Assembly (NCBI RefSeq): GCF_016735495.2
Contig: NZ_JAERQY020000002.1
Span: 744,001 to 808,000, forward strand
DNA: 64,000 bases
Source: Lysobacter sp. MMG2
GTDB lineage: Bacteria > Pseudomonadota > Gammaproteobacteria > Xanthomonadales > Xanthomonadaceae
Direction of reading: 5' to 3'
Shown: one piece after another, positions 4,689 through 19,047 of the stretch
How positions within the stretch are numbered: the stretch's first letter is position 1
How the letters are laid out: each line of letters opens with the position of its first letter
Program-made: the position numbers and the translations under genes
The notes under the pieces: generated by a model
Told to the model about the DNA's origin: nothing
What the model saw: only the letters and a program-made list of their open reading frames with translations
Databases searched by the model: none

Positions 4689-5018
4689 ATGACCAGCAAC
4701 GACTCCGCCGCACGCGCCGCTTTCGATCCGCTCACCGCTGATGGCGGCATCGCCAGCGACCTCAACCTGGACGTGATCCTCGACGTGCCGGTCACGCTGT
4801 CGCTCGAGGTCGGCCGCGCGCGCATTCCGATCCGCAACCTGCTGCAGCTCAATCAGGGTTCGGTGGTCGAACTGGAGCGCGCCGCCGGCGAACCGCTGGA
4901 TCTGTACGTCAACGGCACGCTGATCGCGCAGGGCGAAGTGGTCGTCGTCAACGATCGTTTCGGCGTGCGTCTGACCGACGTGGTCAGCCCGGCCGAGCGG
5001 ATCAAGAGGCTGCGATGA
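4689..5018 (+). CDS. fliN: Flagellar motor switch protein FliN
   Basis: FliN forms the base of the C-ring and docks the FliH/FliI export complex. The 109-residue product is the short single-domain form. Its surface-presentation-of-antigens fold is recognised by VILDVPVTLSLEVGRARI, the NLLQLNQGSVVELERAAGEPLDLYVNG region and the basic C-terminus ERIKRLR. The start follows the fliM stop by five bases, and the stop codon overlaps the fliO ATG (5015-5018). Confidence 0.96.
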   Translation: MTSNDSAARAAFDPLTADGGIASDLNLDVILDVPVTLSLEVGRARIPIRNLLQLNQGSVVELERAAGEPLDLYVNGTLIAQGEVVVVNDRFGVRLTDVVSPAERIKRLR

Positions 5019-5776
5019 TCGCTGCGGGTACTGTCGACGCAGCCGCTGCGTCTGCCCTCACCCGAACCCCTCTCCCGCGAGCGGGAGAGGGGCTCGGCGA
5101 CCGCGCGATGGTTGCGATCGGAAATGATGCGGCTGTCGTTTCGTCGGGTGCGCCCGTGAACTCCCTCCCCTGCTTGCAGGGGAGGGTTGGGGAGGGGTGT
5201 GAGCCGCTTGCGGCGAACGTGTCACAGGAAGGCTCGGCGCAAGGCGCCTCGCTACCCCCTCCCAGCCCGCAGCCATCGGGCGATGGCCCGATGGCGTTCG
5301 TCGGGACGCGCGCCAATGGCGCGCAAGCCGTCCCTCCTCACCCCCTGCAAGCAGGGGGAGCAAAAGCAGGGGGAGCGGCCAACGCGCAGCACACCGCCAC
5401 CGTCGCGCACCCCGCCAAACCGCAAGCCTTCGCCAAGCCCGCCGACGGCCCCGGCATCGGCGGCGCGGTGTTCGCATTGATCCTGGTGGTGTCGCTGATC
5501 CTCGGCCTGGGCTGGCTCGCGCGTCGCATGCCGGGCGTGGGCCGTGCATCCAACACCAACGCGCTGCGCGTCGTCGGTTCGCTGGCGCTGGGGCCGCGCG
5601 ATCGCGTGGTCGTGGTGGAAGTCGGAAACACGCAGCTGCTGCTGGGCGTCGGCCAGAACGGCATGACGACGCTGCACACACTGGCCGAACCGCTGCCTCT
5701 GGCACAGCCTTCGCAGGGGAATGCCGTCAGTCCGTTCGCGCAGTTGCTGGCGCAGCATTTCGGGAAGAAGCCGTGA
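5015..5776 (+). CDS. fliO: Flagellar biosynthesis protein FliO with a repeat-derived N-terminal extension
   Basis: FliO is a small membrane protein that helps assemble the FliP ring of the export gate. Residues about 130-253 look like ordinary FliO: a linker, one membrane segment at about 148-167 (GGAVFALILVVSLILGLGWL), and a cytoplasmic domain with VVGSLALGPRDRVVVVEVG. The first 118 or so residues are encoded almost wholly by an in-frame repeat element (5055-5378) and make a Pro/Gly/Ala-rich tail not expected in this family, which is normally about half this length. The ATG overlaps the fliN stop. No plausible start exists downstream of the repeat, so translation must pass through it. Confidence 0.88.
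   Translation: MIAAGTVDAAAASALTRTPLPRAGEGLGDRAMVAIGNDAAVVSSGAPVNSLPCLQGRVGEGCEPLAANVSQEGSAQGASLPPPSPQPSGDGPMAFVGTRANGAQAVPPHPLQAGGAKAGGAANAQHTATVAHPAKPQAFAKPADGPGIGGAVFALILVVSLILGLGWLARRMPGVGRASNTNALRVVGSLALGPRDRVVVVEVGNTQLLLGVGQNGMTTLHTLAEPLPLAQPSQGNAVSPFAQLLAQHFGKKP
5055..5378. repeat. Family D repeat inside fliO, in frame
   Basis: The block contains GC-rich inverted repeats such as CCCTCTCCCGCGAGCGGGAG and CTCCCCTGCTTGCAGGGGAG, plus the phrase GTTGGGGAGGGGT. The part at about 5292-5357 is nearly identical, in reverse complement, to 12087-12152 inside flhF. It has no stop codon in the fliO frame. Confidence 0.85.
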
Positions 5777-5817: not shown

Positions 5818-5920
5818 ACCGTCGTTCCAGCGAAAGCTGGAACCCATGTTGATCTTCCTGCCGTGAAATCGAACCCAAGAGCAAAAGCAAAATGGATCCC
5901 AGCTTTCGCTGGGATGACGG
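5818..5920. repeat. Family A inverted repeat pair, fliO-fliP gap
   Basis: A forward copy (GTCGTTCCAGCGAAAGCTGG from 5821) and an inverted copy (CCCAGCTTTCGCTGGGATGA, about 5898-5917) are separated by about 50 bases. The frame starting at the GTG overlapping the fliO stop (5773) remains open through both copies into fliP. Confidence 0.85.
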
Positions 5921-11796: not shown

Positions 11797-14151
11797 ATGC
11801 GAATCAAACGTTTCATCGCCCCCGACATGCGCACCGCGCTGCGCATGGTGCGCGACGAACAGGGGCCCGATGCGGTGATCCTGTCGAACCGTCCGGTCGA
11901 GGACGGCATCGAGATCGTCTCGGCCACCGACTACGACGAATCCCTGGCGCAGCAGGCCCTGCGCGCCGCGTTGCCGTCGCTGCCCGCCGCGCCCGCGCCG
12001 GTGGCCTCGCCGAGCACGCCGGCGACGGTGGCGGCGGTGGTGCCGATGACGAAGTCGATGTCGAATGCCTCGAACGAAGCTCCACCTCCCCTGCGTGCAG
12101 GGGGTGAGGAGGGACGTCTGCGCGCCACTGGCGCGCGTCCCGACGAACGCCTTCGGGTTATGCCCGAAGGCCGGGACAGTTGGGGAGGGGTCGCGAAGCC
12201 GCGCAGCGGCGAGCTTGGAGTCGCGACGCATCGCGGCGAGCTCGGCGCTGACGCGCCTCACTACTCCCTCCCAACCTCCCCCGCCAAGGAGGGGGAGGAG
12301 CAAAAAAGCTCGCGCATGTCCTCGCTCGCCGCACTGCTCACCAAGCCGGTGAAGGGCAAGCCCGCCTGGACCGCGCCGTCGGCCGAGTCCACCGTCGAAA
12401 TGGAGCGCGTGGAAATGCAGCGCATCGAAATCGAAGACGAAGAACCCGCCGTCGTCGCGCTCTCCGACAAGGCACGCGCGAAGATCGCCGAATCCCCGAT
12501 CCGCGGCCGCGCCGTGTTCGCCATCGGCGACGGCACGCGCGTGGAAACCGCGCCGCGCGCGCCGAAGGTCGAGACGCAGGTGGCCGACGCGCGCCCCAAG
12601 CCCGACACCTCGCGCTTCGACGCGATGATGGCCGCGCTGATCCCGCAGGGGGAGAAGTTCGAGGCGGCAGCGGCGGCGTTCGCGCAGGCCGCACCCGCCG
12701 GCACCAGCACATCGCACGATGCGCCGGTGCAGGAAGCAACAAGGGACAGCGTCACCGACCCGACACACGTCGCGCCCACGGCTGCGGTCGGAATCGGTGA
12801 CGCTGCTCCCTCTCTATCGGCCGATGTCGCCGCGCTTGAAGGGGCGCGGGCGACGCAGCCCAGCGAGCCGATCTCGCACGAATACCGCAGCCTTGCGGAT
12901 CTGTGGAGCGATGACGCTTTGCTTCCCTCTCCCGACGGGAGAGGGATCGAGGGTGAGGGGCGCAATCAGGACCACCTCGCCGATGGCACTGCCTTCAAGG
13001 GTTCTGCCTCCTACGTCGATCTGTTGACGAATCACTCCGTTGCCCCTCACCCCGACCCCCAAGCCCAAACGCACAGCGTTTGGGCGTTCGATGGCGCGCG
13101 AACCAGTGGTTCGCAAGCAGCGCCCTCTCACTCCGAGAGGAGAGGGGCTCAAGCGCTCGCGCCTCAAACGCCCGCCGCTGCGCCCCACCTCCACGCCGTC
13201 GCCGACGCACGCGACCCGTCCATGCTCGCCATGCGCGACGAACTGGCGACGATGCGCGCGATGATCGAGCGCGAGTTCGGCCAGCTCACCGTCGAACGCC
13301 TGCGCGGTTCGCCGGCGCGCGCGGCGGCGTTCGACCTGCTGATGAGCTACGGCTGCGACGAGAATCTGGCGCAGACGATCGCCGGCCGCATCGACGCCCG
13401 CCTCGACCCGGCGCAGGTGCGCGAGCCGATGCTGGAAGAACTGGCGCGCGCGATCTCCGTCGCCCGCCACGAACCCATCGACGACGGCGGCGTGATCGCC
13501 CTGGTCGGCCCGACCGGCGCCGGCAAGACGACCACCGCCGCCAAGCTCGCCGCGCGTTTCGCCCAGCGCCACCGGGCCCGCGACGTCGCCCTGGTCACCA
13601 CCGACACCGAGCGCCCCGGCGCGACGGAGCAGCTGCACATCCTCGGCCGCCGACTGGGCGTGACGGTGTGCGAGGCCAACGGCCCGGAAGCGCTGAACGA
13701 CGCCCTCGACCAGCTCGCCGACTACCCGCTGGTGCTGGTCGACACCGCCGGCCACGGCCTGCGCGACCGCGCCCTGCTCGGCCAGATCCTGTGGCTGCGC
13801 GCGGCCAAGCGCGTGCGCAGCCTGCTCGTGCTGCCGGCCAACACGAATGCCCATGACCTGGGCGAAGTGGTGCGCCGCTACCGCCCGGCCTCACCGGAAG
13901 GCGTGGTGCTGACCAAGCTGGACGAGACCGGCCGCCTGGGTTCGCCCCTGTCGGTGCTGGTCCAGCACGGCCTGAGCCTGGCCTACACCACCGACGGCCA
14001 GCAGGTCCCGACCGACATTGCCGCCGCGGACGCACGCCGTCTCGTTTTGACCCTCGAGAAAGTGCGACGTGCTGCCGATAACCCCCTCGGGTCTCTCGAC
14101 GCCCGTCCTGTGACCCTCCCCACCGAGGACCGCCATGCCATCGCCAGCTGA
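11797..14151 (+). CDS. flhF: Polar flagellar placement GTPase FlhF with two repeat-derived insertions
   Basis: FlhF is an SRP-family GTPase that targets the first flagellar components to the cell pole. The C-terminal NG domain is intact: a P-loop GPTGAGKTT with Lys577, then TTDTERPGATEQL, the DTAG motif and TKLDETGRLG. The conserved N-terminus MRIKRFIAPDMRTALRMVRDE is also present. At 784 residues the protein is far longer than usual (roughly 400-500). The excess lies in the linker, where two Family D repeats encode about residues 96-170 and 375-453. It overlaps flhG by 17 bases. Confidence 0.93.
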   Translation: MRIKRFIAPDMRTALRMVRDEQGPDAVILSNRPVEDGIEIVSATDYDESLAQQALRAALPSLPAAPAPVASPSTPATVAAVVPMTKSMSNASNEAPPPLRAGGEEGRLRATGARPDERLRVMPEGRDSWGGVAKPRSGELGVATHRGELGADAPHYSLPTSPAKEGEEQKSSRMSSLAALLTKPVKGKPAWTAPSAESTVEMERVEMQRIEIEDEEPAVVALSDKARAKIAESPIRGRAVFAIGDGTRVETAPRAPKVETQVADARPKPDTSRFDAMMAALIPQGEKFEAAAAAFAQAAPAGTSTSHDAPVQEATRDSVTDPTHVAPTAAVGIGDAAPSLSADVAALEGARATQPSEPISHEYRSLADLWSDDALLPSPDGRGIEGEGRNQDHLADGTAFKGSASYVDLLTNHSVAPHPDPQAQTHSVWAFDGARTSGSQAAPSHSERRGAQALAPQTPAAAPHLHAVADARDPSMLAMRDELATMRAMIEREFGQLTVERLRGSPARAAAFDLLMSYGCDENLAQTIAGRIDARLDPAQVREPMLEELARAISVARHEPIDDGGVIALVGPTGAGKTTTAAKLAARFAQRHRARDVALVTTDTERPGATEQLHILGRRLGVTVCEANGPEALNDALDQLADYPLVLVDTAGHGLRDRALLGQILWLRAAKRVRSLLVLPANTNAHDLGEVVRRYRPASPEGVVLTKLDETGRLGSPLSVLVQHGLSLAYTTDGQQVPTDIAAADARRLVLTLEKVRRAADNPLGSLDARPVTLPTEDRHAIAS
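12082..12305. repeat. Family D repeat inside flhF, first copy
   Basis: The block starts with CACCTCCCCTGCGTGCAGGG and ends in CTCCCAACCTCCC plus an AGGAGGGGGAGGAG run. Its first 66 bases are the reverse complement of 5292-5357 in fliO, with few differences. It is read in a different frame from the copies in fliO and cheA. Confidence 0.85.
12921..13155. repeat. Family D-like repeat inside flhF, second copy
   Basis: The block is bounded by CCCTCTCCCGACGGGAGAGG and by CTCACTCCGAGAGGAGAGGG, with an inner segment GCGTTCGATGGCGCGCGAAC related in layout to the fliO and flhF copies. It has no stop codon in the flhF frame. Confidence 0.75.
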
Positions 14152-17220: not shown

Positions 17221-19047
17221 ATGAACGCCATCGCCGACGACATCGCGGCCGACTTCCTGATCGAAGCGCGCGAGATCCTCGACCAGCTGGGCGAGCAGAT
17301 GGTCGCGCTGGAACACGCGCCGACCGACCGCAACTGCCTCAACACCGTCTTCCGCGGTTTCCACACCATCAAGGGCGGCGCGGGCTTCCTCGACTTCGTG
17401 CCGATGGTGCACATCTGCCACGCGGTGGAGGATCGCCTCAACGTCGCGCGTGACGGCACGGTGCCGATGGACGCGGCGGCGTTCGACGACACGCAGCAGT
17501 CGCTGGACCTGCTGGTGGACATGCTCGCGGCCGTGTCGGCCGGCGAGGAACCCGAACACGCACCGCCGGCGCTGCTGAAGTCGCTGCGCGACGGCGCCAA
17601 GGGCATCGCCATGAGCACCGCGAAGCCGGCATCGGCGAACGGCGACATCGACGAGGACGAGTTCGAAGCGCTGCTGGATTCGCTGCACGGCTCCAGCGCG
17701 AACTCCCTCCCCGGCTCGCAGGGAAGGGTTGGGGAGGGGTCGCAAAGCCGCAGCGCGGCGAGCTCGGGCGCTGACGCGCCCTCACTCCCGCCTCCCAACC
17801 TCCCTCTGCAAGCAGGGGGAGGGGCCAAAGGCGCCGCGAAATCCAACGCACAACCCAAAGCCGCCGAAGACCCCACCGTCCGCGTCGACGTGCGTCGCCT
17901 CGACGCGATGGTCGACCTGGTCGGCGAACTCGTGCTCGCGCGCAACCGCCTCAAGACCATCCGCCCGCGCCTGCGCGACGAGGACCTCGATCGCGCCGTG
18001 ACCGCGCTGGACGTCGCCACCTCGCGCCTGCAGTCCTCGGTGATGATGGTGCGCATGCAGCCGGTGGGCCGCGTGTTCGCACGCTTTCCCAAGCTCGCAC
18101 GCGACGTCGCGCGACAGGTGTCCAAGTCGGTGGAGCTGGACATCGTCGGCGCCGAGACCGAACTGGACCGCAACCTCGTCGAAGCCCTCGCCGATCCGCT
18201 GGTGCACCTGGTGCGCAACGCGATCGACCACGGCATCGAAGCGCCGGACACGCGCCGCGCATCGGGCAAGAACGAACAGGGCCGCGTGCGCCTGTCCGCG
18301 CAGCAGGAAGGCGACCACGTCTCCATCGAAGTCAGCGACGACGGCGCCGGCATCGACCCGGAAAAGATCCGCCGCAGCGCCGTCAAGAAAGGCCTGATCG
18401 ACCCCGACGCCGCCGCGCGGCTGTCGTCGGACGAATGCCTCAACCTGATCTTCATGGCCGGCTTCTCCACGCGCAGCGAAGTCAGCGACCTGTCCGGGCG
18501 CGGCGTCGGCATGGACGTGGTGCAGTCCAAGATCCGCGAACTGTCCGGTCAGGTGCAGATCCATTCCGAAGTCGGCCGCGGCACGCGCTTCGTGATCCGC
18601 GTACCGCTGACGCTGGCGATCCTGCCCACGCTGCTGGTGGAACTGGAAGGCGACGTCTACGCGCTGCCGCTGGTGCGCGTGGTCGAAGTGCTGGCGCACG
18701 AGCGCGTGGAGGCGATCTGGGTGGACGGCCAGAGCATGCTCGACCTGCGCGACCAGCCGCTGCCGCTGATCGACCTGCGCGCCTGGCTGGGCCTGGCGCC
18801 CGACCCGGCCGCGGCCACGACCTGCGTGGTGCTGCAGTCCGGCGAGCAACGCTTCTGCCTGACCGTGGACCGCGTGCGCGGCCGCGAGGAAGTGGTCATC
18901 AAGGCCCTGCCCCGCACGCTGCGCGGCCTGGCCGGTTACGCCGGCGCCAGCCTGGTCGGCGACGGCCGCATGGCGCTGATCCTGGATGTGGACGCACTGC
19001 TCAGAACCGGGCTGCGCGGCTCAAGTAGCGCGGCGAGGGACCGTTAA
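17221..19047 (+). CDS. cheA: Chemotaxis histidine kinase CheA, first cluster, with repeat-derived linker
   Basis: CheA autophosphorylates in response to receptors and feeds CheY. The 608-residue product has an Hpt domain with phosphorylatable His48 (FHTIKGGAGF), no recognisable P2 CheY-binding domain, a dimerisation helix pair from about residue 220 (VDLVGELVLARNRL), an ATPase domain (N-box HLVRNAIDHG, DDGAGID, GRGVGMDVV) and a CheW-like domain. Residues about 161-202 come from an in-frame repeat placed in the P1-P3 linker. cheB does not follow, as it does in Pseudomonas; motC comes next. Confidence 0.94.
   Translation: MNAIADDIAADFLIEAREILDQLGEQMVALEHAPTDRNCLNTVFRGFHTIKGGAGFLDFVPMVHICHAVEDRLNVARDGTVPMDAAAFDDTQQSLDLLVDMLAAVSAGEEPEHAPPALLKSLRDGAKGIAMSTAKPASANGDIDEDEFEALLDSLHGSSANSLPGSQGRVGEGSQSRSAASSGADAPSLPPPNLPLQAGGGAKGAAKSNAQPKAAEDPTVRVDVRRLDAMVDLVGELVLARNRLKTIRPRLRDEDLDRAVTALDVATSRLQSSVMMVRMQPVGRVFARFPKLARDVARQVSKSVELDIVGAETELDRNLVEALADPLVHLVRNAIDHGIEAPDTRRASGKNEQGRVRLSAQQEGDHVSIEVSDDGAGIDPEKIRRSAVKKGLIDPDAAARLSSDECLNLIFMAGFSTRSEVSDLSGRGVGMDVVQSKIRELSGQVQIHSEVGRGTRFVIRVPLTLAILPTLLVELEGDVYALPLVRVVEVLAHERVEAIWVDGQSMLDLRDQPLPLIDLRAWLGLAPDPAAATTCVVLQSGEQRFCLTVDRVRGREEVVIKALPRTLRGLAGYAGASLVGDGRMALILDVDALLRTGLRGSSSAARDR
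17701..17826. repeat. Family D repeat inside cheA, in frame
   Basis: The element has 126 bases (42 codons) between CTCCCTCCCCGGCTCGCAGG and CTCTGCAAGCAGGGGGAGGG, with the internal phrase GGTTGGGGAGGGGTCGCAAA. The internal GCGAGCTCGG-CGCTGACGCGCC part matches the first flhF copy. Confidence 0.85.

Follow-up and report, generated by a model that had tools for sequence, protein, structure and literature searches.

The flagellar export gene fliO of Lysobacter sp. MMG2 carries in-frame palindromic repeats ahead of the only membrane helix of its product, and comparison among genomes establishes the multicopy nature of these repeats, their in-frame residence and the common ancestry of the fliO copies. 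Such insertions are probably tolerated in disordered linkers, with the host protein keeping them in frame. This adds a clearly resolved example in which intergenic repeat DNA has apparently turned into protein: a single ancestral insertion, in frame in a gene of core flagellar export, can be followed across ten genomes. The same repeat occurs in two neighbouring flagellar/chemotaxis genes (flhF and cheA), and the whole makes a usable system for questions of peptide neutrality and gene conversion.

In the mechanism that we propose, three families of palindromic repeats (A, B and C), REP/BIME-like and non-autonomous, would have been amplified in this Lysobacter-like genus, with most mapped copies in short intergenic gaps, presumably since selection tends to purge those that land in genes. 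The exceptions would have entered low-constraint stretches, namely the FliO N-terminal tail, the FlhF N-terminal linker, the CheA P1–P3 linker and the signal-peptide junction of a pectinesterase, where copies open in the given frame would yield a translated spacer. For B in fliO, a single entry in a common ancestor of most of the genus would have been followed by in-frame gains and losses of REP-A and C and of short and long forms. The copying was presumably transposition-like and the peptide presumably near neutral. Coordinates below refer to the window, the whole stretch of 64,000 nucleotides that was analysed.

Repeats within fliO and their copies in the genome

The gene fliO lies at 5015–5776 on the forward strand and encodes 253 aa in a frame that is unbroken from its ATG. 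This start overlaps the fliN stop codon (ATGA), has AAGAGG upstream and is kept in all ten genus genomes in which fliO was read. The FliO family match begins at residue 155 (NCBIfam) or 167 (Pfam), and AlphaFold predicted a confident helix at residues 148–171 (5456–5527, forward strand) followed by a beta domain; from this model and the alignment of relatives, the helix is the sole predicted membrane segment. Residues 1–147 had pLDDT mostly below 50 (8 aligned sequences), suggesting that the N-terminal tail is disordered. The periplasmic tail and last 30 residues of Salmonella FliO are described as non-essential (PMC2947984), and FliO lengths are given as 80 to more than 500 aa around a helix-plus-beta core (PMC12403147); a dispensable tail and a variable length together suggest that the insertion site is permissive.

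Three repeat components were identified in this tail, all on the forward strand. REP-A, a single palindromic repeat in frame (ALTRTPLPRAGEGL), lies at about 5055–5097 and has 71 genome matches and a hairpin with a fold z of −3.9. It is followed by about 19 native fliO codons (about 5098–5155) common to the sister species G009, and then by the in-frame composite repeat B (about 5156–5366; NSLPCLQGRVGEGC...PLQAGGAK), with a left arm at 5161–5197 and an inverted right arm at about 5341–5361. The arms share a 16-nt perfect inverted match and thus form terminal inverted repeats of the kind expected in a MITE. Module C, 24 codons at about 5267–5338 with five genome copies, lies within B and makes it the long form. 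The preliminary description of GC-rich inverted repeats in the fliO frame, ahead of the only membrane segment, therefore holds. It had also treated 5055–5378 as one element adding about 100 residues to FliO; this stretch instead comprises two insertions, REP-A and B enlarged by C, with native codons between them, the native codons being common to G009, which is without REP-A, and the repeat-derived contribution is corrected to roughly 85 residues. The repeat stretch has a GC content of 71 %, and 12 % of composition shuffles of 5055–5378 were open in a given frame, so that the open frame by itself is not rare; most of 16 full-length B copies had several stop-free frames. The gap between fliO and fliP (5819–5920) holds another palindromic repeat family, and repeats are also present in other gaps of the flagellar cluster.

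Positions 5050–5385 as a query against the own genome gave at least 56 matches at E≤0.001, self-matches and second-strand palindrome matches included (40 of 183 first-look candidates scored). Allowing up to three mismatches, there were 71 copies of A, 26 of B and 5 of C. The B and C cores (33–37 nt) were exact or near-exact at their 26 and 5 sites and their reversed control gave no matches, which upholds the earlier claim of amplified sequence rather than ordinary low complexity. The count for A is softer because the reversed control of its short core gave 37 matches, although 61 of the 71 true matches had at most one mismatch. Full B copies (n=16) spanned 113–201 bp and consisted of two inverted arms and a spacer. 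A 66-base reverse-complement match to flhF that had been reported previously proved real and longer, at about 127 bp and 81 % identity on the opposite strand, with a longest exact run of 23 nt.

Copies were placed relative to genes with a gene caller that scores codon usage and had been trained on the window; it put 96 of 102 copies outside genes. This caller set the fliO start at 5291, so that the fliO copies of A and B were miscounted as intergenic. After these were moved, 94/102 copies were intergenic, three were at gene ends (L011, L028 and L113) and five were in genes, namely fliO (A, B and C), flhF (C) and cheA (B), a count at up to three mismatches that diverged intragenic copies may escape. 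For A, 68 of 71 copies were intergenic after correction, consistent with the general description of REPs as short, mostly extragenic palindromes in many copies. The cheA copy as query gave at least 49 matches (40 of 117 candidates scored); 30 loci from this search, overlapping the first set, comprised 27 intergenic loci and one each in cheA, flhF and a pectinesterase gene. Residence of the repeat in genes, which the preliminary description had proposed to check genome-wide, was thus found in frame in fliO, flhF and cheA and, outside the window, in the pectinesterase gene, but not for the great majority of copies.

In flhF, B with C occupies 12085–12310 in frame in the N-terminal linker, as indicated by the genome match and the flhF alignment, and the alignment also places an in-frame REP-A-like repeat (LPSPDGRGIEGEG) at 12925–12962. 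The flhF linker (gene at 11797–14151; L177, L178) has received several repeat insertions, and the two own-species genomes, G000 and G059, show a nine-codon difference inside a repeat. In cheA, short-form B lies at 17697–17830 on the forward strand, in the same orientation and frame as fliO B, within the linker between the Hpt domain (residues 8–107) and the dimerisation domain (219–276). Among the genus, B in cheA is full in G000 and G004, with possible remnants in G007 and G003, and B in flhF is present in G000, G009 and G007. The CheA linker of G004 (L. soli) has the repeat and is missing the acidic EFEALLD-like segment of most congeners.

The pectinesterase gene (L207:1423–2619; own genome C1, about 1647920–1649116) carries B in frame between a signal-like N-terminus and the enzyme domain, the repeat preceding the Pectinesterase domain at residues 70–339. 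By our reading, a twin-arginine-like motif may stand just upstream. This copy led us to drop the proposal that all intragenic copies lie in the flagellar cluster. The copies in fliO and cheA share one forward frame and those in flhF and the pectinesterase gene use another.

Descent of the fliO repeats within the genus

Ten of the 12 genus genomes gave a fliO; as two of the ten belong to the own species, they represent nine lineages. In the remaining two genomes (G006 and G010), neither fliO nor the FlhF GTPase region was matched and the sole CheA-like match was distant; from this, they have probably lost this flagellar cluster. B was in frame at the same fliO site in seven of the nine lineages, namely the own species (both genomes), G009, G008, G001, G004, G007 and G003. 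In G002, REP-A was kept and B was not recognisable, and G005 had neither. Five fliO loci outside the genus were considered, of which two (L042 and L043) were without an open fliO at the fliN overlap and one (L044) was left out; neither B nor REP-A was found in the two readable genes, L040 and L041. REP-A was present in fliO of the own species, G002 and G004 and absent from G009, G008, G001, G007, G003 and G005. The long form of B, with C, was found in the own species, G001 and G008, and the short form in G009, G004, G007 and G003.

A 12-mer just after the left arm (CCGCTTGCGGCG) is common to all seven carriers, and among the 26 B copies of the own genome only the fliO copy has it. A shared 12-mer unique to the fliO copy makes one insertion likely, dating back to a common ancestor of most lineages of the genus. 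An insertion that is recent and confined to the own species is ruled out by the in-frame presence of B at the same site in six other species together with the shared 12-mer. In a tree built from the codons of fliP, cheA and flhF, G002 fell within a fully supported group of carriers, which indicates that G002 represents a loss of B. G005 was set as the outgroup of this tree because a protein tree including other genera groups it with those genera (support 0.996). Some inner nodes of the codon tree were weak (61 and 64), and the protein tree, unlike the codon tree, placed the own species nearest the outgroup group (0.873). Module C (G000, G001 and G008) and REP-A (G000, G002 and G004) were scattered over the tree, as was B in cheA and flhF. 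Of the relatives, in which the preliminary description had proposed to look for absence of the N-terminal repeat, G005, L040 and L041 are without it and G009 is without REP-A.

Maintenance and translation of the repeat

To describe selection on the repeat, pN and pS were averaged over 21 non-independent pairs. The B-arm block of fliO, of only 18 codons, had pS 0.13, pN 0.10 and pN/pS 0.73, whereas the FliO C-domain (45 codons) had pS 0.27, pN 0.10 and pN/pS 0.37 and the neighbouring FliO tail (22 codons) had pS 0.37 and pN/pS 0.37. High pN/pS combined with low pS indicates that the block is conserved as DNA, and protein-level purifying selection on the B peptide was rejected on this ratio. Genomes richer in other copies had a fliO arm closer to the family consensus (Spearman 0.78, p 0.04, n 7; ungapped scores, which understate G009, at 30/35 with gaps). 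The copy counts in this correlation use the three-mismatch cut, and decay of the family as a whole could lower them too; a fliO copy of the same age would then be expected to have decayed to the same degree in every species. The correlation fits gene conversion. We infer that gene conversion with other copies, and not selection on the protein, holds the arm close to the consensus.

The 35-nt B core occurs in 28 copies in the own genome. Across the eight genus genomes with fliO and B copies, 15 of 89 B copies lie in the roughly 31-kb flagellar/chemotaxis cluster. Excluding five fliO copies that pass the pattern, this becomes 10/84 against 0.64 expected, or about 15-fold, for which a Poisson value of 2e-9 overstates the case, as the cluster limits were chosen after the positions were seen and the copies are related by descent. 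For the own genome alone, also excluding fliO, the figure was 2/27 against about 0.2 expected. Linker tolerance alone does not predict this concentration of B; the mechanism appears mostly ordinary, with the possible exception of this clustering in flagellar genes.

A rival reading is that the element acts as RNA or DNA, its hairpins tuning the processing, stability or translation of the flagellar message and its frame being respected only because the genes overlap. This is consistent with the fold of 5158–5378, which is far below shuffles (z −6.8), with conservation of the arm at the DNA rather than the protein level, and with the presence of B both in and between genes of the cluster. However, the B arms folded singly are weak, little better than shuffles (left z −1.0, right z −1.6; cheA arm z −2.9), the fliO copy of G009 has a broken left palindrome, G005 has no B, and none is recognisable in G002. 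Likewise, REP-A has no enrichment in the own-genome cluster (1/71) and B in cheA and flhF is patchy across the genus, and we regard this reading as unlikely. A combined form, in which B would be preferentially maintained in the cluster, within proteins as well as between genes, as a shared cis-acting hairpin, homogenised by gene conversion and also supplying an interchangeable linker peptide to FliO, FlhF and CheA, is somewhat less likely still.

A further reading is that FliO has come to make use of the repeat peptide, for instance by way of two conserved cysteines in its presumed periplasmic tail. The peptide SLPCxQGRVGEGCxPLAA is kept with at most two changes in six of seven carriers, and two cysteines stand 8 or 9 residues apart in all seven. 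The cysteine codons are, however, part of the repeat sequence itself, the own-species CheA copy has neither cysteine, G002 and G005 do without B, and pN/pS in the block exceeds that of the C-domain; such a role is very doubtful.

Equally doubtful is that the repeat is untranslated, fliO starting downstream (at ATG 5291 in C, or at the helix) and the repeat serving as an operon spacer. Codon-usage scoring does put the start at 5291, in other species REPs located at the 5′ ends of genes are considered non-coding in many cases (PMC3733652), and an ATG inside module C is present in three of the seven carriers (own species, G008 and G001). In the other four, scanning for ATG, GTG and TTG after the B arm found a GTG at the membrane helix as the first candidate (G009, G004 and G003) or, in G007, nothing up to and including the opening part of the helix and then an ATG 20 residues further along. 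With none of these three codons between arm and helix in these four, B should be translated, and a downstream start, which the preliminary description had named as the finding that would overturn it, was rejected as a general explanation; the overlapping ATGA start kept throughout the genus also stands against it. Translation of fliO B in several species is therefore strongly implied by these gene sequences. Finally, chance resemblance of ordinary GC-rich low-complexity sequence to repeats, for which the GC content, the open shuffles and the reversed control of A might speak, is refuted by the B and C copy counts against a reversed control of zero and has almost no probability left. Tolerated insertion into disordered linkers thus remains the preferred reading.

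Mobility and relation to known repeat classes

The preliminary description had called the sequence a mobile or amplified element; amplification is supported by the copy counts and mobility is at most presumed, with neither a target duplication nor a Y1 transposase over the cut-off. The Y1 transposase domain (Y1_Tnp, PF01797) was over the cut-off in none of 11 genus genomes, the own genome included, with a sub-threshold match in G001, and in 33 of 59 genomes searched overall; a RAYT-mobilised REP was rejected on this basis. No sign of a target duplication emerged from 15 full B copies, whose flanks shared words of a length also given by shuffled pairs (40 of 200 shuffles scored as high), and a MITE with target duplication was likewise rejected. 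A GTAG/CGTC tag in the element or within 8 nt of it was inconsistent, with GTAG at 3/71 and CGTC at 15/71 for A and at 3/26 and 0/26 for B; in the 10 nt before A, CGTC was found at 6/71 against 3/71 in the control window.

No published description of this repeat family, or of repeats in genes of this group, was recognised in the open-licence literature, mostly at the level of titles and abstracts. In having two inverted arms and a spacer, B resembles BIME/REPIN pairs, MITE-like RU and ERIC elements, among which intragenic RU-type repeats have been described (PMC2759123). It differs from these in that no target duplication was seen and no cognate transposase was over the cut-off. Intragenic GTAG/CGTC REPs, known from O. 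terrae, Thauera, Xanthomonas recB and S. maltophilia, are similar as REP-like palindromes within ORFs, those of Xanthomonas recB lying at roughly matching positions in two species (PMC3733652), but the repeats here are without a consistent tag and without a RAYT over the cut-off in the 11 genus genomes.

The closest behaviour suggested at the outset was that of the Rickettsia palindromic elements (RPEs). The likeness holds for palindromic repeats residing in frame in unrelated genes (here fliO, flhF, cheA and pectinesterase) with few frames used, and is drawn as an analogy. Nearly half of RPEs are reported in ORFs (PMC10969869), whereas 94 of 102 mapped copies here are intergenic, and the present repeats are GC-rich and found in Lysobacter-like hosts. 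The repeat families described here look like another example of in-frame repeat insertion with apparent translation, a behaviour known from other bacteria.
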